64,000 bases of DNA. Origin: Parietichytrium sp. I65-24A. Its lineage: Eukaryota > Sar > Bigyra > Thraustochytrida > Thraustochytriidae. Position numbers and translations under genes: made by a program. Of the stretch, positions 28,730 to 52,563 are shown piece by piece. The notes under the pieces were generated by a model. The model was not told where the DNA came from, made no database searches, and saw only the letters and a list, made by a program, of their open reading frames with translations. The stretch is from assembly GCA_012862575.1 (NCBI GenBank), contig BLSF01000024.1:374843-438842 (forward strand), given 5' to 3'. The stretch's first letter is position 1; each line of letters starts with the position of its first letter.

Positions 28730-29231
28730 CCCCTCAACAAATCACTCCGCTGATCGTACGCGCGGAGATAGGATTTATATACTCGCTTGCTAGTACCCTT
28801 CGTCCCCGCGCGCTGCGCTCCTCCCTCTGAAAATTCTCTCTCTCTTATCTATCGAATTAATTATTTCGACAATTTCCTCACCCGCCTTGCTATCGTTTTA
28901 TTTATCTCACTCTACTAATCCCAACGCCCAAATCCCGGGTCGGTAGTTCGTGGCTAATGGATAACCTAGTACTCAGTACTTTTGTTTCAGGTTTGGGGCA
29001 TCAGATATGGTAGAACAGCTCCTTGATCCTTGGCCATTCTATCAGTTTCTAGCAGGCGTGGGTAAGACAAGAAGGTCGAGATTCGTAGTGCTATAATAAG
29101 GTAGTGCTATGGAAGAGAGCCTCGTAGGTGTGGGAAGTGGTGCGAGGACACGTTGAAAGGCAGAAAGGAAGAAGGGAATACGGAAAGAGGAAAGAGGAAA
29201 GAGAGAAAGAGGAAAGAGAGAAACGGAAAGA
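28730..29231. promoter_or_regulatory. Divergent intergenic promoter region
   Basis: 500 bases between divergent starts. It contains an AGTACTCAGTACT-type palindrome near 28970 and a GA-rich tract (29155-29228) directly before the next plus-strand gene. A TTTGTTTCAG acceptor-like sequence at about 28981-28990 might end a 5' leader intron. Confidence 0.4.
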
Positions 29232-34468: not shown

Positions 34469-37400
34469 ATGGCCAAGGTGCTGGAAACGCTGATTGCCAG
34501 GGGCCGCAGAGTGCGGCGGCCGAAGGAGCAGCGCGAAGTGAGCTTCGGCCTGGCAGAGCTGTCCACAAACCCCGAAATTCACGTCAAGATGGTGCTCAAG
34601 GGGGCGTGTAAAACTCTGGTCAAACTTCTCGACCGGAGTGCCGACCTGGAGACACAGCGCTTCAGCGCGCTCGCGTTGGGCAACATGGCGTCGACGTCAG
34701 AGAACAGGGTGCCGATGATGCAGGAAGGGGTGGCAAGAAGCGCGATCACTTACATTGCGAACGAAGAAGGGGACTCCATAGGAAGGCAATACGCTGCGCT
34801 GTGCCTCGGCAACCTTGCAGCGAACCCTGCCAACTTGGAAGAAATAGTAAAGTTGAATGCGATCGAATCGCTTATTACGCTCTTGCGCTCGGAGGACATA
34901 CAATGTGGAAGGTATTCGGCATTCTCATTGAGTAATATCGCGTCAAACGACACTTATAGGAACCAGATTGTGGAGGAAGGTGGAATTGCTCCGCTGGTTG
35001 AGCTAGCTTGCAGTGACGATGCAAACGCGCAGCGCCAAGCACTTGCTGCGTTGCGGGCCATTGCAATTTCCCCTGAACACCGTCCATTGATCGTGAAAGA
35101 AGGCGTTCTTGATCCGCTTGTCTTGATGGCACGGTCGGAAGACGTGTTTATTCAGCGCGAAGTGGCAGCAGCCTTGAACTCCCTGTCGTCTATGGAGGAG
35201 AACAAAACAGAGATTGCAGACCGCGCGATCTCGACAATCATATCTCTCGCACTTGCGGGCGATGTGGAGGTGGAACGCCAAGCTGTGTGCACGATTGCAA
35301 ATTTGATGGAAATGGTGGAACTACATGACATATTACTCGCCGAGTCAGGGCTGGCGCCGCTCATCGCTCTCAGTGTTAGCGAGGATCTGAGCACTAAAGG
35401 AGAATCCTGTCGCGCACTTGCAAACCTGGCTGCAAACCGCGACGTGCAAGCGCACTTGATGAGAGAAGGCGCAATTCGGCCCCTTATCAACGCGTTGCAC
35501 GTAAACGACGTAGCTTGTCAGCGTTTCTCTGCTTTGGGTCTCGCAAACCTGGCAACAAATGTAGCATACCAGGTGAAAATCGTCCAAGAGGGGGCGGTTC
35601 CACCGCTTATTGACTTAACTGGCAACCCGGAGAGAGAGATCGAGGCACGCCGATATAGCGTCCTGTGTATCGCGAATCTTGCCGCAACGACAAGCAACCA
35701 TCCGGCGTTGCTCGAAGAGAATTGCTTACAGGCGCTCTACTCTCTCTCAAATGCTGCAGATGTCATGTCACAATATTATGTTGCATACGCTCTCGCAAAC
35801 TTTGCGTCCAATTGCCGCAACCACCAGGTTATGGTGGAGATGGGAGGTTTACAGCCTGTCATCACCTTGCTGTACAGCAGAGACCCAGACGTGCATCATC
35901 AGGCAGCTGCGGCGATTCGTGGGCTCTCCGTGAATGATACTAACAAGTATAAGATTGTCCAGGAGGCCGGGCTGGAACCTCTCGTGCTGCTGATGAAGTC
36001 GAGAGATGTGGAGGTCCTGCGAGAAGTTGTTGCCGCGATTTGCAATCTTTCCATATCGGACGAAACTAAATTTGAGCTCGCGAAGAGCGCGGCAATCCCT
36101 CCGCTCATTGAATTATCCAAGTCCGAAGACATGGAAGTCGCGAGACAGGCTTGCGCCGCTCTCGCCAACATCGCCGAAGTTGAGTCTAATCAGGTAAAGT
36201 TGGCTGAAGAAGGCGCTGTGGAGGTTCTGATATCGGTCTTGCGGTCCCCCTACGTGGAGGTGCAGAGAGAAGCAGGAAGAGTTGTAGCGAATCTTTGCTC
36301 CCACCCTTCGAACCAATCGCTAGTCGTGGAAGGCGGTGGCCACCAGGTGTTGATTTCTTATTTATTGTCTCCCGACACTGCGTCACAGAGAGTGGGGTCC
36401 CTTGGAATCATGAATCTCTCTACGAATGAAACACACCGAGTGAAACTTATCCAATCTGGCGCGCTGGAACCTCTCATGAGTCTTGCGAGGTCCGAGGATT
36501 TGGAGCTCGAAATCCAGCGATACAGCGTTCTGGCGATTGCAAACTTAGCCTCCTCGGTGGACAATCACACCTTTCTCGTTGACAACGGCGCACTTCCGCT
36601 ATTAATTTCGCTTTCCAACTCTCAGGACGCCGAAGTTCGCCAGTATGCCGCGTTCGCGCTGGTGAGAATTGCTCACAACGCAGAGATTAGGAAGAAGCTT
36701 ACTGACGAAGGCGGCTTGGAGCCTGTCCTCTTTCTTGCGAGGACAAATGACTCCGAAATTCACTGCGAAGTCCTGCCAGCTCTTTGTTCCTTGTCGTTTG
36801 CTGACGCCAATAAACTCGAAATCGCCAGACATGGTGGGCTTGAACCTCTTGTTCAGCTATGCTCCTTGGAGGACGACATGGAAATGGCTCGCCAAGCATG
36901 CTGCGCACTTGCAAATCTTGCGGAAGAGGTAGAAAACCAGCACCTAATTGTTCAGAGGGGGGCGATTCCTGAGCTGATAAAGTCTCTCGAGATGGAAGGA
37001 TTTCCTCAAGTGAACCGTGAGGCAGCCCGATGTCTAGGCAACCTAGCTGCAAATTGCGAGTATGGAAACGAGATGTTTCGCTGCGGGGCTGTCGAGCCGC
37101 TCGTTCTGATGCTTCGCTTCACTGACATCGGCTGCCAGCGAATGGCTTGCATGGCTCTTTCCAACCTTGCAACCAATGTGAAACTTCAACCCCGCCTCAT
37201 AAAGCTTGACGTGGTGGAACCGATGGTAGCTTTGGCATCGAAAGGCCTTGACCAGAACACCACTTCAGACGCAGAGACGGAGAGATATGCGCTTCTATGT
37301 TTGGCAAACTTGGCGTGCTCAAAAGGAGAGGTGCAAACCTTTTTGATTGAAAACGGGGCGATGGATCTCGTTATTGGCTTCTCAAAATCTCGTGACGTCG

Positions 37401-40400
37401 CATGCCGCCAGCATGCCGTTTTTGCAATAGGGAATTTCGCCAGCGATCCAGCAAATATTGAAGCTATTGTTGCTGGCGGGTGCTTGCGACCAATAATTTC
37501 AGCGGCATTTCCAGGTGATGAAAATGTACGCTTTCAAGCTGTCGCAACATTGCGAGGCTTAGCCGTCAACGCCGACGTACGACTAGCGATTGTTCGGAAT
37601 GGTGGCCTCGAACCTCTGATTCTTGCTTGCCAATCTGACAATATTGAAACCCAGCGAGAATGCGCGGCAGCTCTGGTGAATCTCACCCTCAACGAGGAAA
37701 ACAAGGTCACTATTGGCAAGAGTGGATGCATTCCTGCGCTGGTGCAGCTGGCGCAATCTAATGACAGAGAGCGGGAGTTGCATGCCGTGACGGCGATTGC
37801 AAATGTTGCGGAAATGGTGGAAGGAAGGACGCAGAGCATCTTGATCGGAGAAGGCTGCCTGGGAGCGCTGATGCGACTCGCGAACGCAGATCTGCAAGAA
37901 GTGCAGCGCGAAGTTGCGAGAGGGCTGGCTCTCTTTGCTTCCAACACAGAATCTCAAAAAGACGTCGTCAGCTGCGGTGGGCTCTCGCAGATCTTGGCTT
38001 TTGTCAAAAGCAAGGACATCAAGTGCAAGAGATTTGGCTGTTTGGGTCTTGGCAGCTTATCGCTGCAGCATGAAAATCACATGGACCTCATCGACAATGG
38101 TGTTCTGCCGACCTTGGTCACCGCTGCCGCTGACACTTCGGACCTGGAGACTCTGCGGTGTGTGAGCTTTGCTTTTGAGTGCCTTTGCGCCAACGAGGCC
38201 ACACACAGCCTCTCCGATAGGGTCGGCATTGTGCAGCCGCTAGTCAATCTCGCCTTGCACGAGGATCCTGACACTCATCTACATGCTGTCATTGCTGTGA
38301 GGCATTTGGCCCTCAACCCGCGGAATCGTTTGCGATTAGTCGACTTAGGAATCCTTCTTCCTTTGCTAAAGCTTGCTGGCAGTGAAAGTGTGGAGGTGCA
38401 AAGAGAAGTTGCTGCCGCATTGCGAAATCTTAGTCTTTCCGAGGAGAACAAGAGCATTCTTGTGAAACAAGGTGCATTGGAAGCTCTGGTGAACTTTGGA
38501 CACTCGGGAGATGCCGAAGTTGCGCATCAAAGCTGCGGGGTGCTGGCAAACCTCGCAGAACTCGCGGAGAACCAAAGTGCTATGGTTGAAGCTGGTGTGC
38601 TGCAACATTTGAAGTTTGTACTACGATCAAAGTCAATCGCTGTTCAGCGGGAGAGCTGCAGGGCAATCGCGAATCTCTCTGCGGAGTTCTCGCAATCAGC
38701 TGAAATTGCGTCAGGAGGAGCTTTGCCGCCTTTGACAGCAGCTCTATCTTCCCCAGATGTCATGACACAGAGATACGCCGCCATGGGAATTTCTAACTTG
38801 GCAACTCACCTCTCAAACCAGGCCAAAATTATCAGCGAAGGCGCCCTGGACGCGTTAATCAGCTTGGCGAGTTTCTCGAACGGCGACCTAGAGTGTCAGA
38901 GGTATGCGACTTTTGGCCTATGCAACTTGAGCTGCACTCGGACAAATCACCCTGCACTCATACAAAGCGGACTGCTCCCGCTCTTGGCCCAGCTGATGGA
39001 GCATGAAGATAGCGAAGTGCGCAACGCAGCTTGCTTTGGTGTAGGAAACTTTGCTGCATCTGCTGACAACCATCAGCTTCTTCTCGAGGAATCCGTCATC
39101 GAGCCGTTGGTCTACTTGGTGGGGTCTGATGATCCGGAGGCACAGCTAAGGTCAACGGCAGCGTTGCGCGGTCTATCATGCGACCCCGTCATCAGAAACA
39201 GGATCATCGACGAAGGGGCGCTAGAACCACTGTTGGAGCTCGCCAAGTCTGAAAATTTGGCTGTGCAGCACGAAGTGTTAGCGTGCCTTTGCAACTTGTC
39301 GTTGAGCGGTTGTTTGGGAGACAATCACGCTCAGGTGGCCAGAGCGGTGAATGTACCGGCTTTGGTGTCATTTTTATGCTCTGCCGATACTACCTACAGG
39401 CTCTTTGGAGCCGTAGCACTCGGAAACTTGGCTTCTGCAGAAGAGCATCACGATGACATGGTAAAGAACGAGGCCATTGCTCCGCTCATCACTGTCTCAA
39501 ACGCCTCCGATCTGGAAACCCAGCGCGCGATCGCATACGCACTGTGCAATTTGGCTACAAACGAAGACCACCGGACCGCAATCGTGCTCAATGGAGGACT
39601 TCCACCCATCATTTCACTGGCTTGCTCAGAAGATATTGAAGATATGCGCACGGCAACATCTACCTTGCGTGGCCTGGCAGCTGCACCAGCGTCTCGAGAG
39701 CGCATCATTGAAGAGGGTGTGCTGGAGGCTCTGGTCCTCGGCTCAAGAACTCGAGATAGAGCAATATGGACGGAGCTCTGTATGTGCGCCTGCAATCTCG
39801 CATTAAATGAGAAGGTGAAACTCGAGGTCGCAAGATCTGAGCTACTTCCAGAACTTATTCGGCTCACGCGCTGCGGATATGACGATGTTGCTCAGTACGC
39901 GCTTGGAACGATTGCAAACCTGTGCGAAAACTTTATGGCGCACGAATTTGTCACTGCTATAGAAGGCACCATTTTTTTGAATAACTTGACCTCAAGCCAG
40001 GGAAAGGTGACTAGCTCGCACATGGTCCATCGAGAAGCTACCCGCGTGATATCTAATCTTTCGGCCAATTTGGACATGCAAGAGCTACTCGTTCGAAATG
40101 GAACCCATTTTGGATTAGTCCAAGCCATGTGCCATCCAGAAGATGCAATTACGCGTCGGCTCGGCGCTGTCGGAATTGCAAATTTGACTACTAAGCAACA
40201 CCTTCATGATCAGGTCGTGCAGAAGGAGACAGGCTCGCCTGATGACCCGGTCTATCTCGGAGCTGTACACGCCCTTGTAGAACTCGCCAAATTGCATGTC
40301 GATAATCTAGGAAGGCTAGATCTCACCAAAGACGATGCTCAGTCTCGTCGATATGCTGTCTTAGCGCTAGGCAATCTGTGCTCAAATTCCATGATGCACA

Positions 40401-43400
40401 CAGTTTTGATGGAAGAAGAGGCTCTTGGTCCTCTTGTGATTTCTCTTGGCCGGCCAGGAATTGTGGACGATCCGGAAACACACTTTAACGCTGCTTTTGC
40501 TATTGGAAAGCTGGCGAAAAACCAGGCATTGCTAGAATCGATTGGTCGTGCAGGAGCACTTGCACCTTTAACGACGATCGCGCTTGAAGGACCGACTGCA
40601 CAGGCACGATGTCAAGCCATTTCTGCGATTCGTCGAATGCTGAATGAAGAAAGAAACCGAGATGAGGCAATCGAAATGAAGCGTCGGTTGATTCCCGCTC
40701 TTGCCGCAGGAGGAAACTCTTCCGACCTCGAGCTCCAGCGTGAGGTGAGCGCTGCGTTTTGCAATTTGAGTGTCAGCGACATTGCCAAATTTGTCCTCGT
40801 TGGGAAGTCACCGGATCGTGGCCGCGAAGGAGGATGGGCGTCAGTCGAAGGCTTGCAGGTTCTCTTGCAGCTTGCACAGTCCACAGACGTGGAGGTGTCC
40901 AGGCAAGCGTGCGCAGCAATTGGAAACATATCTGAGGAGCCCGCAACGCATCAGCTGATCACAGACGAACAGGGAATTCACTTTTTGACTGTGCTCATGC
41001 GCTCGAGAAAGACGGAAGTTTACAGAGAGGCGTCTCGCGCAGTGGCCAATCTGTTGTCTTCTATTATGGTAACCCATAAGCCGTTTCACACAGAAGATGG
41101 ACTCGCAAGCGTGTTCCGCGTCGCCAAAGCTTCCGACTTGCAATGCAAGTTCCACGCTGCTCTATGCTATCGCAAGCTGACTCCGAACACCCGTTTTCAT
41201 AATGAAATCTGCGCTTCGGCTGGTATCAAGCCACTCTGCGCGCTTATCTTACGTGCGGACGAACCCCTCATCAAACTTCATTCCGTTTCAGCTCTGCGCG
41301 ATCTCTGCTCCAATCCAGAGGTGAAGTGGACCCTTTACAAGGAAGGCGCTTTGTCAACGCTCATCGAGCTACTTGATCAGCAGAATGGCATCACCAAGGA
41401 GATTCGGGAAGCTCATGAAAAGCACAGCAAACGAGTTAAAGCCAGCGCTACTTTAGATGAAATCGACGGAGCGATTGATCCTCAGACTGGCATATCGAAG
41501 AATCTTTTTGTCACTGAACTCTGTGCAATCACCGTTGCGGCTTTAAGACATCTTGCGCTGAATGATCGCTTGAAAAGGAAAATCTCGGAGGAGAGCGGAA
41601 TGGCAGCTATTATCGAAACTGCACAGCACGCAAAAGATGTTGATCTGATTGTGCAATGCTCAGAGAGTCTCGCAATCTTAGCGGAACAACCTGACAACCA
41701 AGTTACCATGGTGGAGGAATCCGGGCTTGTTGCACTCGGGCGACTCAGTATGTCCAAGAGTGAGGCTGCGCGGGAGGCCGTAGCAAGGTGCCACGCTCAC
41801 CTTACTTCCAACGCTCAAAATCAGATCGATGTTTACATGAAGGACGACATCAAAGGCCTCATCCGGCTGAGCTGGTCACCTTCTGAGCTTACATCGAGGT
41901 ACTCAGCGATGTCACTGGGTAATCTGGCAGTGATTCAGAAGAATTCTGATACCATCGCAAGCTGTGGAGGTCTGGCACCGCTCATCCACATGCTGCAGAG
42001 CCCCTTTTCATCATGTAGGTACATGGCAGCGAGAGCGCTTTATCGTTTAGCAACTTCTGAGGAGAATCAGGCGCGAATTAATGAAGGAGGTGGTATTCCT
42101 CTCTTGGTTCGCTTGCTAGGATTCGATCAGGAAACCGAATGCCAAATAAGCGCAGCAATGGCAATTACAAACTTGTCAAGTAACGTGCGGCTGCAGCGCT
42201 ACATGGTGGAGGAAGCTGGCGCCCTCGAGCCTCTCGTGAACTTGCTTCAAAACGGGAACGAATTTGGCAAACGCTACGCCTCCATGGCATTGTGTAATCT
42301 AGCAGAGAACAGCGCAAACCAGCGGAAAATTCTGCTCAGCGGTGCAATTCCCGCACTTATAAGCGGTGCCATGTCCAACGCCCTTGCTGATGTGGATCTG
42401 CAGAGGTATTGCGGTGCATGCCTTGCAAATCTGAGTGTTGATCAGGAGAACCGCAGACAGATGGTACAGCTTGGCGTGATCGAGCCACTCGTGTTACTTG
42501 CCAATTCGCCACGTTTAGAATGCCAACGAGCTTCAGCACTGGCTATGTACAATCTGAGTTGCCTACGAAGTAATCATGAGGCAATCGCCGGAGAAAGGGG
42601 TACATTGCCACTCATCCAGCTTGCCCAATCTTCCGATGTGGACTGCAAGCGATACGCTGCCATGACGCTGGCAAATCTGGCAGCAAACTCTGAGACTCGT
42701 GCTAGCGCGTGTAAGTCAGGCGGTTTGCAGGCTATGATTCTTGTTGCAAAGGATCCTGATCCAGAGGCGCAGCTGTACGGCATAATTGCTCTGACAAACT
42801 TGGCATGTGATGCACAAACCCAGGTGCAGGTGATCGTGCATGGTGGCCTTCAGCCCATCTTGGATGGTTGCGACTCAAAGAGCGTGGATAAGCAAACTTA
42901 CGCGGCCATGGCCTTGGCGAATCTCAGTGCAAACGAGCAAAATCACTCCACCCTGCTCGCAAAAGGAGCGCTCGAGCGGCTCATTAAATTGGCCAAAGAC
43001 TTGGACAATGACGACTTGGCTCAATATGCTTGCTTTGCATTGTGTAATATGGCAAGTAATGCAGAAGTCCTGGCTTCCTTGGGCGAGAGCGGGGCTTTGC
43101 CACCGCTAATTGGTCTCGCCTTTAGCGAGGATTCCAACACACGACTGCTAGCTGTAGCAGCCCTTCGCCGCTTGGCGATGGCTGCGGCAAATCGAACGCT
43201 ACTGGTCGAACAGGGCTTACTCGGTCCTCTCAGCTTAGCTGTCAAGGACGACAAAGCAGCGCAGGAAATTCAGCGGGAAACAGCTGGTTGTTTATCGTCG
43301 ATTTCTCTCAGCGATGAAAACAAGGTTGCTATTGCTGCAAGCGATGTCCTCTCGGTTTTGGTGACGTTGTCGCAGAACAAGGACGTTGAAATAGCACGCC

Positions 43401-45838
43401 ATGCTTGTGGTGCAATCGCGAATATTGCCGAAGACCCCGACACTCACAGATTTATTTCCGAAAAAGGGGGTGGCGAGTTCATGGTGGGGCTCATGCATCA
43501 CACCAGTCTGGATGTGCACCGCGAAGCTAGCCGCGCGATTGCGAATCTTCTCACTTCCTTTGGCAATCACATGGACATCATTGAGCACGGTATCCAAGGC
43601 ATTGTTCACTTGGCCCTTTCCCAAGACGAGGAGTGCATGTACAACGCGAGCTTGGCCTTCCGAAAGCTCGCACCCAACATTTCTTCTCACGGACCCCTAA
43701 TAGCTTCCGGCGGACTCCAATCTCTATTTTACTTGATCTCTTGCAACGATATCAAAATACAGCGACAGGCAGCACTAGCGCTTCGAGATATTGCAGCAAA
43801 CCCAGAGTTTTGGCAGCGTTATGCTGAGGAGGGCGGCGTGAATGCTCTCATTAAGTTGTGCAGATCGGACTCCACAGAATTACGAACTCTGGCTGTGGCA
43901 TCCCTCCGGCACTTGTCTCAGCACAATCTCATCAAGAAACTGGTCATACGCGAAGGGGGCCTTCCTCCAGTTCTTCGGTGTTGCGGCTCCCTCAATCTCC
44001 AGTTACGATTGCAATGCGCGGGCCTTTTGGCAAACTTAAGTGAGGATCTCGAGAACCAGGTAACGCTTGTAGAAGAAGGCGTCGTGCCACACCTTGTAGA
44101 ACTGGCTCACGTCAACAGTGACGAGATACAGCAAGACGTGTCGCGATGTTTTGCAAACTGCACTTCGAACGAGGAAAATGTGCTCACGGTGTACAAACAG
44201 GGAGCATTGCGGGCCTTGATAAAGCTCACAAATTCTGCAGACACCGTGTGCCAAAGGTATTCTGCAATGGGGCTTCGCTTCATGGCAACTCATGCGGAGG
44301 TGCGTCTCAACATTGTCCGTGAAGGGCTCTTGCAGCCTTTCCTAGCTCTTGCGCAATCTCCTCTCTTGGACTACCAGAGAACCGCTGCGGCTGCACTATC
44401 ATCGTTCAGCCTGAACGAAGCGAACAAGACCAAACTTGTACAATGTGGTGGCCTCTCGCAGCTTTTGAGCTGCATGAAGTACGATGACCTAGAAGTTCGT
44501 CGTGACTGCTCGGATGCGATGGCAAACATATGCGACTCTCCAGAGTATCATTTGGATGTCGCCCGAGAAGGTGGTGTCGAAATCCTGGTTCAAGTTGGAC
44601 TTGATGAAGATGCCAGGGTCCAAAGAGCCTGTGGGAGAGCCTTTGCATCTCTCTCAGTTGGGACCGACCTCAAAGCCCTTCTTGTACAAAGGAATGTCCT
44701 GCCCACGCTCTTCGCACTCGCCAGGTCTCTGGACATTGCAACTCAACGATTTTCAGTCCTCGCGCTTTGTAACTTGTGCGCTGGCGACGACAAAGTAGCG
44801 ATAGTAGATGCTGGGGCTGTGCGGCCGCTCCTCTTTTTGGTTCGATTCCCCGATATCGATATTCAGCGTACGGCCAGCTTGGCTATTGCCGGTCTGGCGT
44901 TAGGTGATCACCGCGATAACAAGGTCCGGCTCGTGGAGGAAGGCGCGGTGAGCCCATTGATAGACCTGATTCGCTTTCCGGATGTCAGTGTGCAAAAGGC
45001 AGCCATTCTTGCTCTCACAGCAATCGCTCTCGGCAAGCACGCGACTACGAAACTTGCTATTGCGCAAGCGGAAGGCGTAGTCCCTGTTCTATCCTTGGTT
45101 GCGAATTCGAGGGACAATATCGCCGTCAGGGCTGCAATGTACTGCATTGGCTGCATGTGCGAGAGCGATGAGGTAAAGGCTCGCTGCATGGAAGCTGGTG
45201 CTCTCGTGACGGTTTTGTCGCAGCGCAGGTCTGGAGATATGGAGGTGAAGCGAAATCTTGCCTACATTCTTGCCTTGCTATCGGAGGCAATTTTTTTCCA
45301 CGACGACTTGGTTCGAGATAACGGTGTCGACACGATTATCGACCTTGCCGCTTTGGAGGACACTGAGTGTCAAGAGTACGCTTGTTTTTCGCTTGCCCAC
45401 CTGGCCTCGAATCGTGACTTGCAGACCCTTTTAGTTGAGCGTGGAGCGTTGCAGCCATTAGTGTCGATCCTGTCGACAAGAGCAGAGGCAAGCAACTATG
45501 CCGGTCTAGCATTGCTAAAGTTGGCCGATAATTATGAGAACCATCAAAAAATCGCCGCAGAGGGAGGGATCCAAGCGCTCCTTCGATTGGCCAGGTCGAG
45601 GGCTACCGACCAAGAGTTGCAATATAAGGCCGCACTTGCTGTAGGCTCCCTTGCATCAAATGCAGTCAAGCTGCTACCACATCAGTCCGGCAACGGTATC
45701 CCGACAGATGCGCCTGAGACCGGCGGTGGTTTACCAAGTTTGAACGCGGCAAAAGTACCTGTTGGCTCTATCGCCAGAAGTGGAGCTCAAACAAAGACTG
45801 AGAACTTTTTGGAAAAGTCAATCAAAAAGTCGCGCTAG
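34469..45838 (+). CDS. Giant armadillo-repeat protein (3,789 residues)
   Basis: One uninterrupted 11.4 kb exon. From residue about 20 to about 3,730 the protein is wall-to-wall armadillo repeats of 41-42 residues, about 90 by length. They have the usual pattern of a Gly-turn, LVxLL-type helix, DxExQR and AALxNLA helix (for example DLETQRFSALALGNMA, EVQREAGRVVANL). No kinase, U-box, F-box, ankyrin or transmembrane segment is visible. The last 60 residues are polar and Ser/Pro/Gly-rich. The N-terminus is short and basic (MAKVLETLIARGRRVRRPKEQRE). The closest general resemblance is to Vac8-type and other ARM-only scaffolds, but those have about 10-12 repeats. ARM superhelices bind extended peptides, so a multi-site scaffold is the natural inference; the partner is unknown. 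The ATG at 34469 is preceded by untranslated-looking sequence. It is convergent with the FGDF-repeat gene (186 bases apart). Confidence 0.93.
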   Translation: MAKVLETLIARGRRVRRPKEQREVSFGLAELSTNPEIHVKMVLKGACKTLVKLLDRSADLETQRFSALALGNMASTSENRVPMMQEGVARSAITYIANEEGDSIGRQYAALCLGNLAANPANLEEIVKLNAIESLITLLRSEDIQCGRYSAFSLSNIASNDTYRNQIVEEGGIAPLVELACSDDANAQRQALAALRAIAISPEHRPLIVKEGVLDPLVLMARSEDVFIQREVAAALNSLSSMEENKTEIADRAISTIISLALAGDVEVERQAVCTIANLMEMVELHDILLAESGLAPLIALSVSEDLSTKGESCRALANLAANRDVQAHLMREGAIRPLINALHVNDVACQRFSALGLANLATNVAYQVKIVQEGAVPPLIDLTGNPEREIEARRYSVLCIANLAATTSNHPALLEENCLQALYSLSNAADVMSQYYVAYALANFASNCRNHQVMVEMGGLQPVITLLYSRDPDVHHQAAAAIRGLSVNDTNKYKIVQEAGLEPLVLLMKSRDVEVLREVVAAICNLSISDETKFELAKSAAIPPLIELSKSEDMEVARQACAALANIAEVESNQVKLAEEGAVEVLISVLRSPYVEVQREAGRVVANLCSHPSNQSLVVEGGGHQVLISYLLSPDTASQRVGSLGIMNLSTNETHRVKLIQSGALEPLMSLARSEDLELEIQRYSVLAIANLASSVDNHTFLVDNGALPLLISLSNSQDAEVRQYAAFALVRIAHNAEIRKKLTDEGGLEPVLFLARTNDSEIHCEVLPALCSLSFADANKLEIARHGGLEPLVQLCSLEDDMEMARQACCALANLAEEVENQHLIVQRGAIPELIKSLEMEGFPQVNREAARCLGNLAANCEYGNEMFRCGAVEPLVLMLRFTDIGCQRMACMALSNLATNVKLQPRLIKLDVVEPMVALASKGLDQNTTSDAETERYALLCLANLACSKGEVQTFLIENGAMDLVIGFSKSRDVACRQHAVFAIGNFASDPANIEAIVAGGCLRPIISAAFPGDENVRFQAVATLRGLAVNADVRLAIVRNGGLEPLILACQSDNIETQRECAAALVNLTLNEENKVTIGKSGCIPALVQLAQSNDRERELHAVTAIANVAEMVEGRTQSILIGEGCLGALMRLANADLQEVQREVARGLALFASNTESQKDVVSCGGLSQILAFVKSKDIKCKRFGCLGLGSLSLQHENHMDLIDNGVLPTLVTAAADTSDLETLRCVSFAFECLCANEATHSLSDRVGIVQPLVNLALHEDPDTHLHAVIAVRHLALNPRNRLRLVDLGILLPLLKLAGSESVEVQREVAAALRNLSLSEENKSILVKQGALEALVNFGHSGDAEVAHQSCGVLANLAELAENQSAMVEAGVLQHLKFVLRSKSIAVQRESCRAIANLSAEFSQSAEIASGGALPPLTAALSSPDVMTQRYAAMGISNLATHLSNQAKIISEGALDALISLASFSNGDLECQRYATFGLCNLSCTRTNHPALIQSGLLPLLAQLMEHEDSEVRNAACFGVGNFAASADNHQLLLEESVIEPLVYLVGSDDPEAQLRSTAALRGLSCDPVIRNRIIDEGALEPLLELAKSENLAVQHEVLACLCNLSLSGCLGDNHAQVARAVNVPALVSFLCSADTTYRLFGAVALGNLASAEEHHDDMVKNEAIAPLITVSNASDLETQRAIAYALCNLATNEDHRTAIVLNGGLPPIISLACSEDIEDMRTATSTLRGLAAAPASRERIIEEGVLEALVLGSRTRDRAIWTELCMCACNLALNEKVKLEVARSELLPELIRLTRCGYDDVAQYALGTIANLCENFMAHEFVTAIEGTIFLNNLTSSQGKVTSSHMVHREATRVISNLSANLDMQELLVRNGTHFGLVQAMCHPEDAITRRLGAVGIANLTTKQHLHDQVVQKETGSPDDPVYLGAVHALVELAKLHVDNLGRLDLTKDDAQSRRYAVLALGNLCSNSMMHTVLMEEEALGPLVISLGRPGIVDDPETHFNAAFAIGKLAKNQALLESIGRAGALAPLTTIALEGPTAQARCQAISAIRRMLNEERNRDEAIEMKRRLIPALAAGGNSSDLELQREVSAAFCNLSVSDIAKFVLVGKSPDRGREGGWASVEGLQVLLQLAQSTDVEVSRQACAAIGNISEEPATHQLITDEQGIHFLTVLMRSRKTEVYREASRAVANLLSSIMVTHKPFHTEDGLASVFRVAKASDLQCKFHAALCYRKLTPNTRFHNEICASAGIKPLCALILRADEPLIKLHSVSALRDLCSNPEVKWTLYKEGALSTLIELLDQQNGITKEIREAHEKHSKRVKASATLDEIDGAIDPQTGISKNLFVTELCAITVAALRHLALNDRLKRKISEESGMAAIIETAQHAKDVDLIVQCSESLAILAEQPDNQVTMVEESGLVALGRLSMSKSEAAREAVARCHAHLTSNAQNQIDVYMKDDIKGLIRLSWSPSELTSRYSAMSLGNLAVIQKNSDTIASCGGLAPLIHMLQSPFSSCRYMAARALYRLATSEENQARINEGGGIPLLVRLLGFDQETECQISAAMAITNLSSNVRLQRYMVEEAGALEPLVNLLQNGNEFGKRYASMALCNLAENSANQRKILLSGAIPALISGAMSNALADVDLQRYCGACLANLSVDQENRRQMVQLGVIEPLVLLANSPRLECQRASALAMYNLSCLRSNHEAIAGERGTLPLIQLAQSSDVDCKRYAAMTLANLAANSETRASACKSGGLQAMILVAKDPDPEAQLYGIIALTNLACDAQTQVQVIVHGGLQPILDGCDSKSVDKQTYAAMALANLSANEQNHSTLLAKGALERLIKLAKDLDNDDLAQYACFALCNMASNAEVLASLGESGALPPLIGLAFSEDSNTRLLAVAALRRLAMAAANRTLLVEQGLLGPLSLAVKDDKAAQEIQRETAGCLSSISLSDENKVAIAASDVLSVLVTLSQNKDVEIARHACGAIANIAEDPDTHRFISEKGGGEFMVGLMHHTSLDVHREASRAIANLLTSFGNHMDIIEHGIQGIVHLALSQDEECMYNASLAFRKLAPNISSHGPLIASGGLQSLFYLISCNDIKIQRQAALALRDIAANPEFWQRYAEEGGVNALIKLCRSDSTELRTLAVASLRHLSQHNLIKKLVIREGGLPPVLRCCGSLNLQLRLQCAGLLANLSEDLENQVTLVEEGVVPHLVELAHVNSDEIQQDVSRCFANCTSNEENVLTVYKQGALRALIKLTNSADTVCQRYSAMGLRFMATHAEVRLNIVREGLLQPFLALAQSPLLDYQRTAAAALSSFSLNEANKTKLVQCGGLSQLLSCMKYDDLEVRRDCSDAMANICDSPEYHLDVAREGGVEILVQVGLDEDARVQRACGRAFASLSVGTDLKALLVQRNVLPTLFALARSLDIATQRFSVLALCNLCAGDDKVAIVDAGAVRPLLFLVRFPDIDIQRTASLAIAGLALGDHRDNKVRLVEEGAVSPLIDLIRFPDVSVQKAAILALTAIALGKHATTKLAIAQAEGVVPVLSLVANSRDNIAVRAAMYCIGCMCESDEVKARCMEAGALVTVLSQRRSGDMEVKRNLAYILALLSEAIFFHDDLVRDNGVDTIIDLAALEDTECQEYACFSLAHLASNRDLQTLLVERGALQPLVSILSTRAEASNYAGLALLKLADNYENHQKIAAEGGIQALLRLARSRATDQELQYKAALAVGSLASNAVKLLPHQSGNGIPTDAPETGGGLPSLNAAKVPVGSIARSGAQTKTENFLEKSIKKSR

Positions 45839-46024: not shown

Positions 46025-49000
46025 TTACAACGCAGAGAACGGATCATCGTCGTCAATCCCAGTGGGTCGCAAAGAGCCCGATGCTTGGCTAGAGAGGGTG
46101 GCCATCGGAAGCGCGAGACCTTTGGAGAGCATGAAGGAGAGATCGGGAGGGCCGCTTGTTTCGGCGGGGGCCACTCTTGCTAAAATTTGGTTCAAGAGCT
46201 CTTCTCCTTCGTTTGAGAGCTCCCCTTTCCCTTTCATGCTCGCAAAGAGCTGATTCATGTTACTGCTTGATTCAGGTTGTGTTTTTTTCTCAGGGAGAGC
46301 TAAAAATGACGAGTTATCAATCTCGCCACCGGCATCCCCTCCTTCGTTGTTAGGCTTTGAGAGCCAAGAAGAAAACATGTCCATGTCAGAGGTTTGAGTA
46401 TCAGCTGGCGGAGCCGCATTCACTGGAATTGACGGTGTGAAATCGCTTGAGCCGCTTGAAACAAATGCGTTGAAGTCCATCTCTTCGGTTTCCTCTGACA
46501 TCCCTTTCAGCATACTCGATCCTGTTAAATCATTGTTATAAGAAGTGTCCTCATTCTTCACACTCGCCGCTTCACCGGACGAGAATTCCGGCTTGGCTTG
46601 TTCGGCCTCAAGGCCCGGATCACCTTCCGACGAATCCCCGTCGCGATCATCTTCTTCCTCGCTGAGTGTCAAAGGCGAACTTCCGTTTTCGCCGCCAAAG
46701 GAACCGAAGCTCTCCTCGCTGCTAAAGTGCGCCAGTCCGGTGGAATTTTCTGCGTTTTTACTTGGAGAAGGTTCCTCGTCAAGATTGTTCTGAGTTGGAT
46801 TGCTCACCTCTCTTGCACGCGGAGGCGGAGGGGGCTGCACCTCCACTGAATCGTTGATTGCCGAGTGGAAATTTGTGCTTCCCAGCAGCATGGAGACGGA
46901 GTGCTCGCCATCTGAGGAGAGTCGCTGCTCCAAAACAGTAAGACCTCGTTGGCTTCCATCTTTCAGTAGAGTGCGTTTGAGTGCTTGCGCGGGATTTCCA
47001 TATTCTTTTGGCCTAGAGGTGTCCGTTCCTATGAGCGCCGCGCCGCAAGGCAAGCAAATCTTGGAGAGATGCCTTACCATCGCCCCGCACAGCTTGCATT
47101 TAGATGGACAAAATAGCTGATCAGACGAGCTGGAAGAGAAAACTTTTACACGAAGCTGTGATGTCGCTGGTGGGGAAAACTCTGGCACGGAGTCCGCCAT
47201 TTTGGAACTGGAGCCGAGGGAACCAAATAGTTTCGAAGCAGCTTGCTCGATGGTCTTAGCTGGCAATTTTACGAAACCCAAGAGCTGATCTTGGTGACCC
47301 TTGTTCGGCACCGCGTCACTTGTGCTCGTCGTCGTCGCCTTCGCTTCGTCCTCAAACGCGGGTTCAAAATCTTCGAAGTCGCCGAAGTCATCATCGGAAC
47401 TACCCGGGCGATCCGTTTCTTTTGCGATATCTGCTTGATCCTCAAAGTCCCCAGAAAAGTCTCCAAAGTCATCTTCATCATCCACGTCGTTGGCGAGGCT
47501 TCCCTCCATAGTCTGTCCTCGCTCTTGCAACGTTTGCGATGGTTGCTTGTGGCTCTCATCAAAATCTGTAAAGCTTTCGTCATCATCTTCTTTACCACCC
47601 TGAGCTCCAAACCCATCAGCAATACCAGATTCCGAGGAAAAATTGGGCTCACTATCCTCTGGCTTGCTCAAATCGCTGCCCACATCGGATCGCGCAGTGC
47701 CGCCGTCTGCGCGAACTTCAAATGGCTCACTCGCGTCAAAGTCACCAAAATCATCGTCTTCGTCCTCAGCTGGTGGGCCGCCGGTTTTTCCCTGTGATAC
47801 AGGGTCGTTCTCTGGATCTCCTTCAAATGGCTCGTTGGATCCATCCGCCGATTTGCTTGAGCCAAAGTCTTTTGAGTGAATGTGCTTTGTATCCTCGTTG
47901 TCAAAGTCTCCAAAGCCATCGTCTCCATCCTCTGCCTCTGCCACGTCACTCTTTAGTGCCTTGCCCTCATCGTCTAGCTCGCCTCCAAATGGTTCGTTCG
48001 AGACAGCTTCGGTTGTATTCGACCCGAAGTCTTCCACCTGACCTGGCTTTTCATTTTCCTCTCCAAAGTCATCGTCTCCAACCTCTGGCGGTGGAAAGTC
48101 ATTTTCTTGCGACTTGGTACCGGCTGCGAGCTCGCCACCGAATGACTCATTCGATCCATCCACCGATGTGTTAGAACCAAAGTCTTCTGATTGGCTTGTC
48201 TTTACGTTCTCTTCGCCAAAGTCTCCGAAGCCATCGTCTCCGTCCTCTGGAGGTGGGAAGTCGTTTTCTTGCGATGAGATATCAGCCGCAAGCTCGCCTC
48301 CAAATGATTCGTTCGAGCCAGCTTCGGTGATATTCGACCCGAAGTCTTCCACCTGACCTGGCTTTTCATTTTCCTCTCCAAAGTCATCGTCTCCAACCTC
48401 TGGCGGTGGAAAGTCATTTTCTTGCGACTTGGTGTCGGCTGCGAGCTCGCCACCGAATGACTCATTCGATCCATCCACCGATATGTTGGAACCAAAGTCT
48501 TCTGATTGGCTTGTCTTTACGTTCTCTTCGCCAAAGTCTCCAAAGCCATCGTCTTCGCCCTCTGGAGGTGGGAAGTCGTTTTCTTGCGATGAGATGTCAG
48601 CCGCAAGCTCGCCTCCAAATGATTCGTTCGAGCCAGCTTCGGTGATATTCGACCCGAAATCTTCCGCCTGAACTGGCTTTCCAATTCCTTCTCCAAAGTC
48701 ATCGTCTCCAACCTCTGGCGGTGGAAAATCATTTTCTTGCGACTTGGTGTCGGCTGCGAGCTCGCCACCGAATGACTCATTCGATCCATCCACCGATGTG
48801 TTGGAACCAAAGTCTTCTGATTGGCTTGTCTTTACGTTCTCTTCGCCAAAGTCTCCAAAGCCATCGTCTTCGCCCTTTGGAGGGAAGTCATTTTCTTGCA
48901 ACGACATATCAGCCGCGAGATCGCCTACAAATGATTCGTTTGAACCGGCTTCGGTAATATTCGAGCCGAAATCTTCTCCCTGACTTGGCTCTCCATTTTT

Positions 49001-50173
49001 TTCTCCAAAGTCATCGTCTCCAACCTCTGGCGGTGGAAAATCATTTTCTTGAGACTTGGTGTCTGCTGCAAGCTCGCCACCAAATGATTCATTCGATCCA
49101 TCCACCGATATGTTAGAACCAAAGTCTTCCGATTGGCTTGCAGTTACGTTCTCTTCCCCTAAATCTCCAAAGTCATCATCTCCAGCTTGTGCTGAAGAGA
49201 AGTCACTTTCTTGCGACTTGATATCGGCCGCGAGCTCGCCACCGAATGACTCGTTCGATCCATCAACCGATACGTTCGAGCCAAAGTCTTCTGATTGGCT
49301 TGTCTTCACATGCCCTTCGCCAAAGTCTTTCGGGGACTGGCTCTCCGCGTGATTTTCATTCCCAGACTCCTGCACATCCTCATCATTTAAATCCGCGAAA
49401 GAAGGTCCATTTAACACTCCATCTGAAGCGCTCAGCAGCCCTGTGTTTTCGAGGTCATTTACAGTCGCAGAAGCAGTCGAAAATCCCTGGCTACCTTCGC
49501 TCTCAAGCCGACGGGCAGGTGAAATTTCGAACACGGCATTCATCTCGTCTCCCGCTGGGGAACCAAGTAAATCTTTCTCGAGCTCCATAGACAAAGCCTC
49601 AAAGTCGCTCTCCTCATTCTCGTCCTGCACATCGGGCGTCGTTTTTCCTTTGACACTGTGCTTGGCTTCATCGTAATCCTCTTCATCGAGGACTCCCAGC
49701 GCTAACTCTACATTTTCCTGCGAGCCCGGATTTTCACTCGACTCTTGCTCCTCTTCTGCGTGCTCCAGCATTGCAATGTCCTCCTCTAGCTGTCTCTCTG
49801 CGCGCTTGAAATCGCCGTCTTCGTCCACATCAACATCAGCATTCACATTCGGGGTTCCATCAGTTCTCAACTGGTTCTCAGTATATGCACCATGAGCGTC
49901 AGCACTCGAAACCTGGAAACCTTCTCCAGCTAATTCCAGAGGAGTTTGTTGCAAAATCTCCTGCTCGAGCTCGCGCTCCAGAGCAAAGTCTTCTTCTTGC
50001 TCAGCATGAGCAGCATCTGTCTGGCGCATTTCAGCCGTGATAGCGCTGTCATTTGCCAGCTCAAGCGCCAAATCACCAGGCTCATTCGGCAGCTCAGATG
50101 CTTCTTCCAGAATTTCGGTCCCGAGCCGCGAGGAAAGCGCCGCAAACTCAGCTTCTTCGTCCGTGTCGCCCAT
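46025..50173 (-). CDS. Acidic FGDF-repeat protein with tandem 105-residue repeats and a zinc ribbon
   Basis: A 1,382-residue single-exon protein starting MGDTDEEAEFAALSS. The first third is acidic and helical. From about residue 280 to 730 it is built from tandem 105-residue units (315 bases, one of 312), each made of two related 52-residue halves: EDFGSN(I/T)SVDGSNESFG and EDFGSNITEAGSNESFG, followed by ENDFPPP and DDGFGDFG or DDDFGEEN. Acidic DDDFGDF motifs continue to about residue 900. FGDF in acidic context matches the aromatic-G-[DEP]-aromatic motif bound by AP-1 gamma-ear and GGA ear domains (aftiphilin, gamma-synergin). Near residues 1015-1040 a CKLC-x10-CLPC pair looks like a zinc ribbon. 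A disordered C-terminus ends in DDDDPFSAL. A clathrin-adaptor accessory role is inferred from motifs only. Repeat number may be wrong because of the adjacent assembly problem. Confidence 0.85.
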   Translation of the reverse strand: MGDTDEEAEFAALSSRLGTEILEEASELPNEPGDLALELANDSAITAEMRQTDAAHAEQEEDFALERELEQEILQQTPLELAGEGFQVSSADAHGAYTENQLRTDGTPNVNADVDVDEDGDFKRAERQLEEDIAMLEHAEEEQESSENPGSQENVELALGVLDEEDYDEAKHSVKGKTTPDVQDENEESDFEALSMELEKDLLGSPAGDEMNAVFEISPARRLESEGSQGFSTASATVNDLENTGLLSASDGVLNGPSFADLNDEDVQESGNENHAESQSPKDFGEGHVKTSQSEDFGSNVSVDGSNESFGGELAADIKSQESDFSSAQAGDDDFGDLGEENVTASQSEDFGSNISVDGSNESFGGELAADTKSQENDFPPPEVGDDDFGEKNGEPSQGEDFGSNITEAGSNESFVGDLAADMSLQENDFPPKGEDDGFGDFGEENVKTSQSEDFGSNTSVDGSNESFGGELAADTKSQENDFPPPEVGDDDFGEGIGKPVQAEDFGSNITEAGSNESFGGELAADISSQENDFPPPEGEDDGFGDFGEENVKTSQSEDFGSNISVDGSNESFGGELAADTKSQENDFPPPEVGDDDFGEENEKPGQVEDFGSNITEAGSNESFGGELAADISSQENDFPPPEDGDDGFGDFGEENVKTSQSEDFGSNTSVDGSNESFGGELAAGTKSQENDFPPPEVGDDDFGEENEKPGQVEDFGSNTTEAVSNEPFGGELDDEGKALKSDVAEAEDGDDGFGDFDNEDTKHIHSKDFGSSKSADGSNEPFEGDPENDPVSQGKTGGPPAEDEDDDFGDFDASEPFEVRADGGTARSDVGSDLSKPEDSEPNFSSESGIADGFGAQGGKEDDDESFTDFDESHKQPSQTLQERGQTMEGSLANDVDDEDDFGDFSGDFEDQADIAKETDRPGSSDDDFGDFEDFEPAFEDEAKATTTSTSDAVPNKGHQDQLLGFVKLPAKTIEQAASKLFGSLGSSSKMADSVPEFSPPATSQLRVKVFSSSSSDQLFCPSKCKLCGAMVRHLSKICLPCGAALIGTDTSRPKEYGNPAQALKRTLLKDGSQRGLTVLEQRLSSDGEHSVSMLLGSTNFHSAINDSVEVQPPPPPRAREVSNPTQNNLDEEPSPSKNAENSTGLAHFSSEESFGSFGGENGSSPLTLSEEEDDRDGDSSEGDPGLEAEQAKPEFSSGEAASVKNEDTSYNNDLTGSSMLKGMSEETEEMDFNAFVSSGSSDFTPSIPVNAAPPADTQTSDMDMFSSWLSKPNNEGGDAGGEIDNSSFLALPEKKTQPESSSNMNQLFASMKGKGELSNEGEELLNQILARVAPAETSGPPDLSFMLSKGLALPMATLSSQASGSLRPTGIDDDDPFSAL
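47990..49330 (-). repeat. 315-base coding tandem repeats in the FGDF protein gene
   Basis: The plus-strand marker CTCCAAAGTCATCGTCTCCA recurs at 48061, 48376, 48691 and 49003, that is at 315, 315 and 312 bases. Identity between units is very high, so recent expansion or ongoing homogenisation is likely. Confidence 0.92.
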
Positions 50174-50332
50174 TTTCCCTCGAGGGCCAAAATGAAACCC
50201 GTAGATATTCAATATTTAATATTTTCAGCGTCGGCTCTCGTCCCAACCCCAATTTTTTTAAAACCAGGAAGCGCAATTCAACACACACACACAAAAGAGA
50301 AGCTCGACAATGAACGGAGCAGAGATCAAATG

Positions 50333-50333
50333 N
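50333..50333. other. Assembly gap (single N) between two contigs
   Basis: One ambiguous base joins the upstream flank of the FGDF gene (ending AGATCAAATG) to sequence from inside the same gene (starting TTTTCTTG). Both joined ends occur elsewhere in continuous form (51624 and 49044), so this is a contig junction and not natural sequence. Confidence 0.95.
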
Positions 50334-51464
50334 TTTTCTTGTAGACTTGGTGTCTGCTGCAAGCTCGCCACCAAATGATTCATTCGATCCATCCACCGAT
50401 ATGTTAGAACCAAAGTCTTCCGATTGGCTTGCAGTTACGTTCTCTTCCCCTAAATCTCCAAAGTCATCATCTCCAGCTTGTGCTGAAGAGAAGTCACTTT
50501 CTTGCGACTTGATATCGGCCGCGAGCTCGCCACCGAATGACTCGTTCGATCCATCAACCGATACGTTCGAGCCAAAGTCTTCTGATTGGCTTGTCTTCAC
50601 ATGCCCTTCGCCAAAGTCTTTCGGGGACTGGCTCTCCGCGTGATTTTCATTCCCAGACTCCTGCACATCCTCATCATTTAAATCCGCGAAAGAAGGTCCA
50701 TTTAACACTCCATCTGAAGCGCTCAGCAGCCCTGTGTTTTCGAGGTCATTTACAGTCGCAGAAGCAGTCGAAAATCCCTGGCTACCTTCGCTCTCAAGCC
50801 GACGGGCAGGTGAAATTTCGAACACGGCATTCATCTCGTCTCCCGCTGGGGAACCAAGTAAATCTTTCTCGAGCTCCATAGACAAAGCCTCAAAGTCGCT
50901 CTCCTCATTCTCGTCCTGCACATCGGGCGTCGTTTTTCCTTTGACACTGTGCTTGGCTTCATCGTAATCCTCTTCATCGAGGACTCCCAGCGCTAACTCT
51001 ACATTTTCCTGCGAGCCCGGATTTTCACTCGACTCTTGCTCCTCTGCTGCGTGCTCCAGCATTGCAATGTCCTCCTCTAGCTGTCTCTCTGCGCGCTTGA
51101 AATCGCCGTCTTCGTCCACATCAACATCAGCATTCACATTCGGGGTTCCATCAGTTCTCAACTGGTTCTCAGTATATGCACCATGAGCGTCAGCACTCGA
51201 AACCTGGAAACCTTCTCCAGCTAATTCCAGAGGAGTTTGTTGCAAAATCTCCTGCTCGAGCTCGCGCTCCAGAGCAAAGTCTTCTTCTTGCTCAGCATGA
51301 GCAGCATCTGTCTGGCGCATTTCAGCCGTGATAGCGCTGTCATTTGCCAGCTCAAGCGCCAAATCACCAGGCTCATTCGGCAGCTCAGATGCTTCTTCCA
51401 GAATTTCGGTCCCGAGCCGCGAGGAAAGCGCCGCAAACTCAGCTTCTTCGTCCGTGTCGCCCAT
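50334..51464 (-). pseudogene. Truncated second copy of the FGDF-repeat gene 5' part; probable assembly artefact
   Basis: Bases 50344 to about 51622 repeat 49053 to about 50331 at a constant offset of 1,291, up to a length-variable CA tract. The ORF starts at 51464 with the same MGDTDEEAEF and runs about 370 residues until the gap cuts it off. I see two substitutions in the first 1.2 kb (T49755/G51046, giving Glu versus Ala; and 50182/51473 in the leader) plus length change in the CA tract and one SNP nearby. This allele-level difference and the N favour two unmerged haplotype contigs over a true duplication. Confidence 0.8.
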
Positions 51465-52563
51465 TTTCCCTCAAGGGCCAAAATGAAACCCGTAGATATT
51501 CAATATTTAATATTTTCAGCGTCGGCTCTCGTCCCAACCCCAATTTTTTTAAAACCAGGAAGCGCAGTTCAACACACACACAAACACAAACACATACACA
51601 AGAGAGAAGCTCGGCAATGAACGGAGCAGAGATCAAATGTAAGCAAGCTTGAGCCAAAGCACACACAACAAGAGTATGTCAAAGTCACGCAGCGCAGTAC
51701 TTCCCTAGCTTCACCCACAACGAATCCGCAATAATAAGAAGAAGAAGAATAATAAGTATGCTCGCTTCTCTCCAAACTCTTTCGCTGTAGTCTCCCACAC
51801 TCCTCGCCAGCCTTTACGCTAATAGTTGGTTAGCCCTCTTCAGCGCGTACCCTTCGGAAAACTAACACTGTGCGCGTATGCTGCTCTACCGCTCTATTAG
51901 TTGATTGGAGTAATTAGAATGCCTAATGGAGGTTAGGATACTCTAAAATTAAGTAATAGAGGTGTCGCCTAAGCTCCGCTACCCTGTATCTTTACTATGA
52001 TACCTTGGTATGAGGTTATTGGCTAATGAAAAGCCTATGTATAGAATAGAAGTAATTTGAGGAAGAACCCAGTGCGAGATGACTAAATGACTATGAATGA
52101 CTAATGAATGACTCCGGTTCCAGCGAAGAACCCGATTCCAATAGTAAATCCGTTCCGCAAACGCTCTCGTGATCGCTGTACCGCTACCCTTATTCACTCG
52201 CTACTACAAAAGTAGAATCCGCTCGTACAGCCAGCTCTCTACCGCCTCCAGCTACGAACAAACAGCAGTAATAGTGAAACAATTTCAAACTCAAAAATCA
52301 TCGCAGAACACATCTCAGAGCACCTACCAGTCATCTACCGATCCCTTAACCACCTTTCTCCCGCCAAGTCCCTCAAGTCCCACAAGTCCCACCACACAAG
52401 TCCCACAAGTCCCACAGGTCTCTCTAAATTGCCGCACAGACGTCCTCGCCCACGGTCCGCGCACAACGCAAAAAAAGTTCGCAAGCGAGACACACCATTA
52501 CCAAAAAAGAGCGACAGAGCGAAAGAGCGACAGAGTGAAAGAGGAGGGAGGGAGGGAGAAAGA
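51465..52563. other. Intergenic, about 1.1 kb
   Basis: It holds the true upstream flank of the FGDF gene, a CA/CACAAA microsatellite (51571-51602), CAAGTCCCA-type short repeats (52368-52412) and a GA-rich tract (52500-52560) directly before the next gene. No other gene is seen. Confidence 0.5.

Follow-up and report, generated by a model that had tools for sequence, protein, structure and literature searches.

A giant armadillo-repeat protein of Parietichytrium with 88 units and a seven-unit order that sits mainly in groove columns

Introduction

Vac8 has about 12 armadillo (ARM) units and its N-terminus bears an acylation signal; importin-alpha carries an N-terminal importin-beta-binding domain, and in designed ARM binders each ARM reads two residues. 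According to the available text of PMC4756613, conserved Asn residues on the concave side of the designed binders bind the main chain of the peptide, for whose binding Glu30 and Trp33 are also important. Longer natural arrays are described in the available text of PMC10125020, namely HUWE1, an E3 ligase with 34 repeats, and GAC of Toxoplasma, a giant ARM protein of Apicomplexa with 53 ARM/HEAT-like repeats and a PH domain, which binds F-actin; the range of 10-12 units that the first-pass annotation of the present locus had given for known ARM scaffolds is too low as a ceiling. Super-repeats are described in the available text of PMC7109182 and PMC7427331 for two other giant repeat proteins: in nebulin seven simple repeats correspond to the troponin-tropomyosin arrangement, and in titin the D-zone super-repeat has seven domains and the C-zone super-repeat, which is matched to about 43 nm, eleven.

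The gene described here lies in a 64,000-nucleotide stretch of contig BLSF01000024.1 of Parietichytrium sp. I65-24A (the window) and encodes 88 ARM units with a seven-unit order. Neither this protein nor an array of 88 units, a seven-unit groove code or any ARM super-repeat was found in the open-licence literature, among the matches listed, long ARM arrays being already known; in the available part of PMC7155890, "super-repeat" beside armadillo repeats is a family name. GAC (2,639 aa) is likewise a very long, nearly pure ARM array, and its role as a connector of multiple partners, F-actin and adhesin tails among them, offers a model; however, it has 53 units rather than 88, it ends in a PH domain that Pfam does not find here (whole protein at E <= 0.001, last 91 residues at E <= 1), its available description in PMC10125020 holds no seven-unit code, and its fold match is loose. 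The importin-beta-binding domain of importin-alpha is absent, as ARM begins at residue 4 and the first 88 residues match ARM/HEAT models only. Designed ARM proteins and importin-alpha have groove positions that correspond to columns 20, 23 and 27 of the units described below; designed proteins repeat one unit, whereas the code here differs by unit within a seven-unit frame. Nebulin and titin share the seven-unit super-repeat in a giant repeat protein, a functional likeness and not kinship; their folds are other than ARM.

The reading frame and its ARM units

34469..45838, + strand: gene for the 3,789-residue, 88-unit ARM protein (open frame, Pfam Arm, all-helical solenoids in AlphaFold2)
45683..45835, + strand: tail of about 51 residues at the C-terminus, beyond the ARM array (sequence; unit calling places no unit there)

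On translation the gene is a single stop-free frame of 3,789 aa; the frame is open upstream from 34415, its first ATG is at 34469, and the protein begins MAKVLE. It belongs to the Armadillo-repeat family by PF00514 (Arm; E 3.1e-264, 846.3 bits against a cut-off of 20.6), and at E <= 0.001 the whole protein matches 15 Pfam families, all of them Arm or other ARM/HEAT-type solenoid models, with no non-ARM/HEAT domain at that threshold. Searched alone at E <= 1, the first 88 residues match ARM/HEAT models only, and the last 91 match only Arm, weakly (E 0.078), in the last unit before the tail. A profile trained on the protein itself gave 86 unit hits, of which one was re-anchored; two were added by eye and the boundaries of seven units were adjusted after profile calling, which brings the total to 88, most of them 41 aa long, covering residue 4 to about residue 3738. 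The first-pass annotation had proposed one exon with about 90 ARM units and no other domain, which agrees with this count; the protein is best read, from its sequence, as a putative giant ARM scaffold without a catalytic or other Pfam-recognised domain. A six-frame scan of the window found no further ARM exon, bar a trace (E 0.46) in a KAP3-like gene, and Tandem Repeats Finder reported no array within the 88-unit gene.

AlphaFold2 models were made of units 6-31 from a three-row alignment (mean pLDDT 84.4 for the best of five and 72.6 for the worst, pTM 0.46) and of units 59-87 from a two-row alignment (78.6 and 61.0, pTM 0.45). Both are all-helical solenoids with three helices per unit; the pTM of 0.45-0.46 means that superhelix geometry is not fixed by either model. 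Solved fold matches include designed ARM proteins, importin-alpha, Vac8, beta-catenin, ODAD2 and CAND1, and in the fold-match lists designed ARM proteins and importin-alpha rank above the axonemal ARM chains. For the C-terminal half, Foldseek places the GAC chains 8c4a and 8bt6 at ranks 10 and 16, with CAND1 higher; the GAC chains superpose only loosely, with TM 0.23-0.25 by query and an rmsd of about 60 A.

A seven-unit module along the array

Unit order is far from chance, as self-alignment of the string of 88 units scores 34.0 and no more than 11.1 is reached when the order is permuted 60 times. The strongest unit lags are 37 (z 5.2), 19 (3.9), 13 (3.6), 7 (3.3) and 6 (3.1), the 95% bound for the best of all lags being 3.35. 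The building block is a module of seven units of classes A-B-C-D-E-F-G, which runs through the array as follows.

34469..35101, + strand: units 1-5, array start partway through a module; G at unit 5, D/E/F-like classes at units 2-4 and no class at unit 1 (class scores)
35102..35965, + strand: module M1, units 6-12, A-G (unit calls, self-alignment, class scores, MAFFT)
35966..36709, + strand: module M2, units 13-18, A-F, with the loss of a unit at the F/G junction (deletion scan, MAFFT gap)
36710..37600, + strand: module M3, units 19-25, A-G (unit calls, self-alignment, class scores, MAFFT)
37601..38347, + strand: module M4, units 26-31, A-B-C-D-(E/F)-G with an E/F-like unit, one unit lost at E/F (deletion scan, MAFFT gap)
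38348..39214, + strand: module M5, units 32-38, A-G (unit calls, self-alignment, class scores, MAFFT)
39215..39715, + strand: shortened module M6, units 39-42, A-x-x-G with the two middle units weakly classed (self-alignment, class scores, MAFFT)
39716..40684, + strand: module M7, units 43-49, A-G with F and G weak and longer loops (unit calls, class scores, MAFFT)
40685..41095, + strand: units 50-52, A-B-C (class scores)
40418..42088, + strand: units 48-59, first of the two copies made by a second duplication, at a lag of 19 units (self-alignment)
42965..44446, + strand: units 67-78, second copy of the 19-unit-lag duplication, with G-A-B-C at units 68-71 (self-alignment, class scores)
43955..44692, + strand: units 75-80, B-C-D-A-B-C by groove code, not used in defining the classes (units 72-88, p = 0.016)
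44813..45073, + strand: units 82-83, adjacent pair, the sole clear local duplication

Units 28, 29, 30, 40, 41, 48 and 49 are weak scorers that were classed by position, as was unit 34, whose top score is A. The six-unit modules have lost different units: the deletion scan of M2 scores 412.4 for a loss at the F/G junction against 363.7 at E/F, with the MAFFT gap at the same place, and that of M4 scores 290.3 at E/F against 271.6 at F/G, again supported by the MAFFT gap. A basic block of 13 ARM units, which had been proposed from the alternating spacings, is not supported in view of these differing sites of loss, the similarity of modules being a weaker point; the module tree is weakly supported throughout and its branching is undecided on block size. 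Growth by duplication of a large block, claimed at the same time, is partly supported, in so far as a block was probably multiplied, one of seven units and not 13. The observations behind that proposal were sound: the six occurrences of its marker fall on units 6, 13, 19, 26, 32 and 39, and its spacings of 864, 744, 891, 747 and 867 bases are the unit boundaries found here. Its second marker, class B in the present scheme, follows the first in five of six cases but is missing after unit 39. The register had been called irregular after 39.3 kb; the marker itself continues at units 43, 50, 69 and, more weakly, 78. Units 53-67 have no code order (p 0.324).

In the second duplication the self-alignment run from 48:67 to 59:78 still scores 20.3 with the six code columns described below masked (null maximum 11.0), so that this duplication is visible outside the groove columns too; units 50-57 and 69-76 are 35.7% identical. 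With columns 14-31 masked it alone exceeds the null (13.4 against a maximum of 9.3), the lag-37 run falling just below (9.0 against 9.3).

Groove columns that carry the module

With column 1 set at the G of GALEPL and 41 columns per unit, the seven-unit pattern sits mainly in six columns: 20, 23, 26, 27, 30 and 35. In units 1-50 these have the highest periodicity per column, in the order 23 (z 9.2), 20 (6.3), 30 (5.3), 26 (3.8), 35 (3.3) and 27 (3.0); column 17 reaches 2.6, and columns 1-13 are all at or below 1.7. The 3-4-3 spacing of columns 20, 23, 27 and 30 corresponds to one face of the long helix, and in a PDB alignment counted by eye the Glu30, Trp33 and conserved Asn of the designed ARM repeats of 6sa8 align to columns 20, 23 and 27. 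The classes differ in their groove residues: A has Glu20 and usually Lys35, B has Glu30, C has Glu20 with Arg23, D and E have mostly a hydrophobic residue or Tyr at column 20 and Leu, Met, Val or Phe at column 23, F has an aromatic residue at column 23, and G has Arg26 and lacks the ladder Asn of column 27. Among 52 classed units Arg23 is found in 8/8 of class C and 0/44 others, Arg26 in 8/8 of class G and 1/44 others, Asn27 in 0/8 of class G and 36/44 others, and Glu30 in 8/8 of class B, counts that are partly circular because the classes were set from all columns. When the tested column was left out and class was assigned by the other 40 columns from other modules, Arg26 was found in 11/13 units of its class versus 5/75 others, Glu30 in 8/11 versus 5/77, Glu20 in class A in 10/15 versus 8/73, and Arg23 in 4/4 versus 8/84, just four units reaching class C without column 23; the six columns were themselves selected from these data, and such tests lessen the circularity while some remains.

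Scored against units 6-31, the six columns place 23 of 26 other labelled units correctly and the other 35 columns 15 of 26. Columns 23, 20, 30, 26 and 35 are in the top eight with either unit set alone; column 27 is there for one of the two sets and absent with units 6-31 alone. Read through the six columns alone, with each unit's own module left out, units 1-52 give.DEEGABCDEEGABCDEEABCDEFGABCEEGABCDEEGAE.GABCDEFGABC (F frequently being called E), and units 72-88, which lie outside the class definition, give E.GBCDABCEAAFBEE. (p = 0.016, 500 permutations). Self-alignment on the six columns alone reaches 38.2 (null maximum 10.6), a value that is not evidence as the columns were picked on the same data; with the six masked, the N-terminal register falls to 7.1, the level of permutations (null mean 6.2, maximum 11.0). 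Even with these columns removed 36 of 52 units still reach their class, which favours shared descent over convergence. Class information is also held by column 21, beside the groove face (z 5.8), and is lacking in the core columns 6, 25 and 38 (z -0.5 to -0.1).

The ladder Asn of column 27 is present in 52/88 units and Trp at column 23 in 0/88; importin-like Trp pockets are therefore absent, and the Trp-Asn ladder of importin-alpha is not reproduced. Runs of five or six units with this Asn occur in M1, M2, M3, M5 and M7, and the longest, of eight, spans units 60-67, where module order is absent; the Asn ladder alone is therefore not the code and is not tied to the module.

Age and mode of growth

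At shared four-fold codons, third-base identity is 0.284 (n=647) between units of the same class and 0.304 (n=2,924) between units of different classes; silent sites are saturated between modules. Third bases at background indicate that the duplication is old and that amino acids, not DNA, were kept; together with the lack of a Tandem Repeats Finder array they also show that the array is no assembly artefact of near-identical copies. The groove amino acids were probably kept by selection, as judged from the units of one protein because no relative was found outside the genome in the viral and prokaryotic collections searched.

Neighbouring units share 26.5% identity and any two units 26.6%, which gives no sign of recent growth by the copying of neighbours, units 82 and 83 being the clear exception. 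The top lag of the raw residue autocorrelation over residues 1-1700 is 1083 residues (26 units), above 41; unit-index tests were used instead of this measure, which hides the 6-, 7- and 13-unit lags because unit lengths vary.

Relatives and other ARM arrays of the genome

The genome searched comprises 42.5 Mb in 172 contigs. No second copy of the gene was found in it among the 17 of 73 candidates scored, the best match elsewhere having 29% identity (122.7 bits). A single-protein query, which reaches close relatives only, gave no pattern match among the viral sequences of IMG/VR and two, of which none was confirmed, among the prokaryotic contigs of GTDB. Among the best 60 of 163 PDB sequence matches, Vac8 is the best natural protein (155 bits) and ARMC4 reaches 105 bits; GAC is absent among the best 60 of 163 and the best 60 of 147. 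The chains of ODAD2/ARMC4 (1,044-1,048 aa) and 7n6g_0A (499 residues), the ARM chain of the C1 central pair that we take to be PF16/SPAG6, are also ARM arrays, ARMC4 matched by sequence and both by fold; they are far shorter than 3,789 aa.

The groove code was scored in 15 other ARM frames of the genome (34 loci; at least five units, duplicates dropped) and in Vac8. One frame, L028, gave p 0.038 and none fell below 0.01; A-G order in Vac8 is not significant (p 0.09). Descent of the module from the last three units of Vac8 (G-A-B) was considered and is suggestive only, as the best triples, at 5.7 and 5.4, stay below the 95% bound of 5.9 set by permutation.

The same genome holds long ARM frames of 1,811 (C12, L029), 443 (C98, L030) and 980 aa (C142, L032), in which the units are of 43 residues and much more alike, a mode of growth that differs from that of the 88-unit gene; the C12 frame ends, by eye, in a RING-like stretch. 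As a control, the lag test finds in C12 (30 units recognised) a single lag, 23, that exceeds its bound (z 4.1 against 3.43), so that block duplication is not unique to the 88-unit gene, and none in C142 (22 units).

Other features of the window

KAP3 is an ARM protein of the intraflagellar-transport motor kinesin-II, and a KAP3-like gene lies 9.6 kb downstream of the ARM gene. It and the other features of the window are as follows.

55440-58187, + strand: KAP3-like kinesin-associated protein (PF05804, E 2.5e-135)
46025-50215 and 50148-51470, - strand: acidic protein with many FGDF/DDFG motifs
26372-28738, - strand: protein with ankyrin repeats, a FYVE zinc finger and a synaptobrevin-like end
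652-2340 and 8706-10781, - strand: two frames with a common CERC(V/L)K(H/Q)NR start and LHAATTLAVST further on
20001-22000: island of 68.5% GC (46-55% in other 2-kb stretches) with many short repeats

The FGDF/DDFG protein contains a 315-base unit in about four copies (91% match) and has no Pfam family at E <= 0.001. The frame next to it is a near-exact repeat of its first few hundred residues and includes one unreadable codon, which points to either a partial gene duplication or an assembly join. The two frames at 652-2340 and 8706-10781 likewise have no Pfam family at E <= 0.001 and possibly form a lineage-specific family.

Possible function of the super-repeat

The explanation to which we give roughly even confidence is that an old seven-ARM block was multiplied and that selection kept its groove chemistry, producing an array of similar peptide-binding sites. 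The multiplication of a seven-unit ARM segment would lie far back, and losses of one or several units would have shortened the array afterwards; most surfaces would have drifted, with concave-groove residues staying bound to their position in the module, and each module would offer much the same ordered groove. If importin-alpha, beta-catenin and designed ARM proteins are a guide, an extended peptide may lie along each of the five- or six-unit Asn runs of M1, M2, M3, M5 and M7, and class G, with Arg26 and without the ladder Asn, would break the groove and part neighbouring sites. Multivalent binding by the scaffold is likely on such analogy, and the simplest ligand would be several copies of one peptide motif, or a partner with repeated sequence, spaced along the rod. 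A multi-site ARM reader is a doubtful further reading, in which about 8-10 copies of a seven-ARM peptide frame, with class G as spacer, would serve a repetitive partner; columns 20, 23, 26, 27 and 30 would provide the specificity residues, and the partner would have a period of about 14 residues if two are read per ARM.

It is somewhat unlikely that the super-repeat is a mere fossil of block duplication, its groove residues having been kept for helix packing or superhelix twist and its ligands being varied or few. The class signal that survives outside the six columns (36 of 52 units; 15 of 26), the informative column 21 adjoining the groove face and the several shortened or degenerate modules are consistent with such a fossil; however, the groove columns hold most of the information and the core columns 6, 25 and 38 none, and with third bases at background recency does not explain the retained residues. 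The differing module lengths (4, 6 and 7 units) should be forbidden in a strict molecular ruler or stiffener that, like nebulin or titin, sets one super-repeat against each repeat of a cytoskeletal or axonemal polymer, which makes this an improbable account despite the seven-repeat super-repeat of nebulin and the seven- and eleven-domain super-repeats of titin (available text of PMC7109182 and PMC7427331). Its further support comes from F-actin-binding GAC among the fold matches, from ODAD2/ARMC4 and the central-pair chain 7n6g_0A among the sequence and fold matches, and from the KAP3-like kinesin-II subunit gene downstream; gene proximity in a eukaryote is weak evidence, however, and generic ARM proteins outrank the axonemal chains by fold. 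Least probable is a giant connector of the Vac8 or GAC type that tethers membranes or adhesins, the repeats mainly supplying length: Vac8 is the best natural sequence match among the best 60 of 163 in the PDB, and the fold search with the C-terminal half brings up GAC chains, but the GAC match is loose and its PH domain is missing here, and Vac8, with about 12 units to the 88 here, has no significant A-G order. The MAKVLE start also lacks an acylation signal of the Vac8 type.

Implications

If the reading of a multiplied block with conserved groove chemistry is right, module order would be a residue code, defined by position and unit, that sets the specificity of such a giant array; were the multi-site reader true, it would be a natural equivalent of the modular peptide binders made by design and an analogue of nebulin built from ARM units. 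The view that ARM scaffolds have no more than about 12 units is corrected. Groove residues can still reveal a super-repeat in a solenoid when most of the sequence has drifted, and other giant ARM/HEAT proteins, GAC among them, may be open to the same approach.
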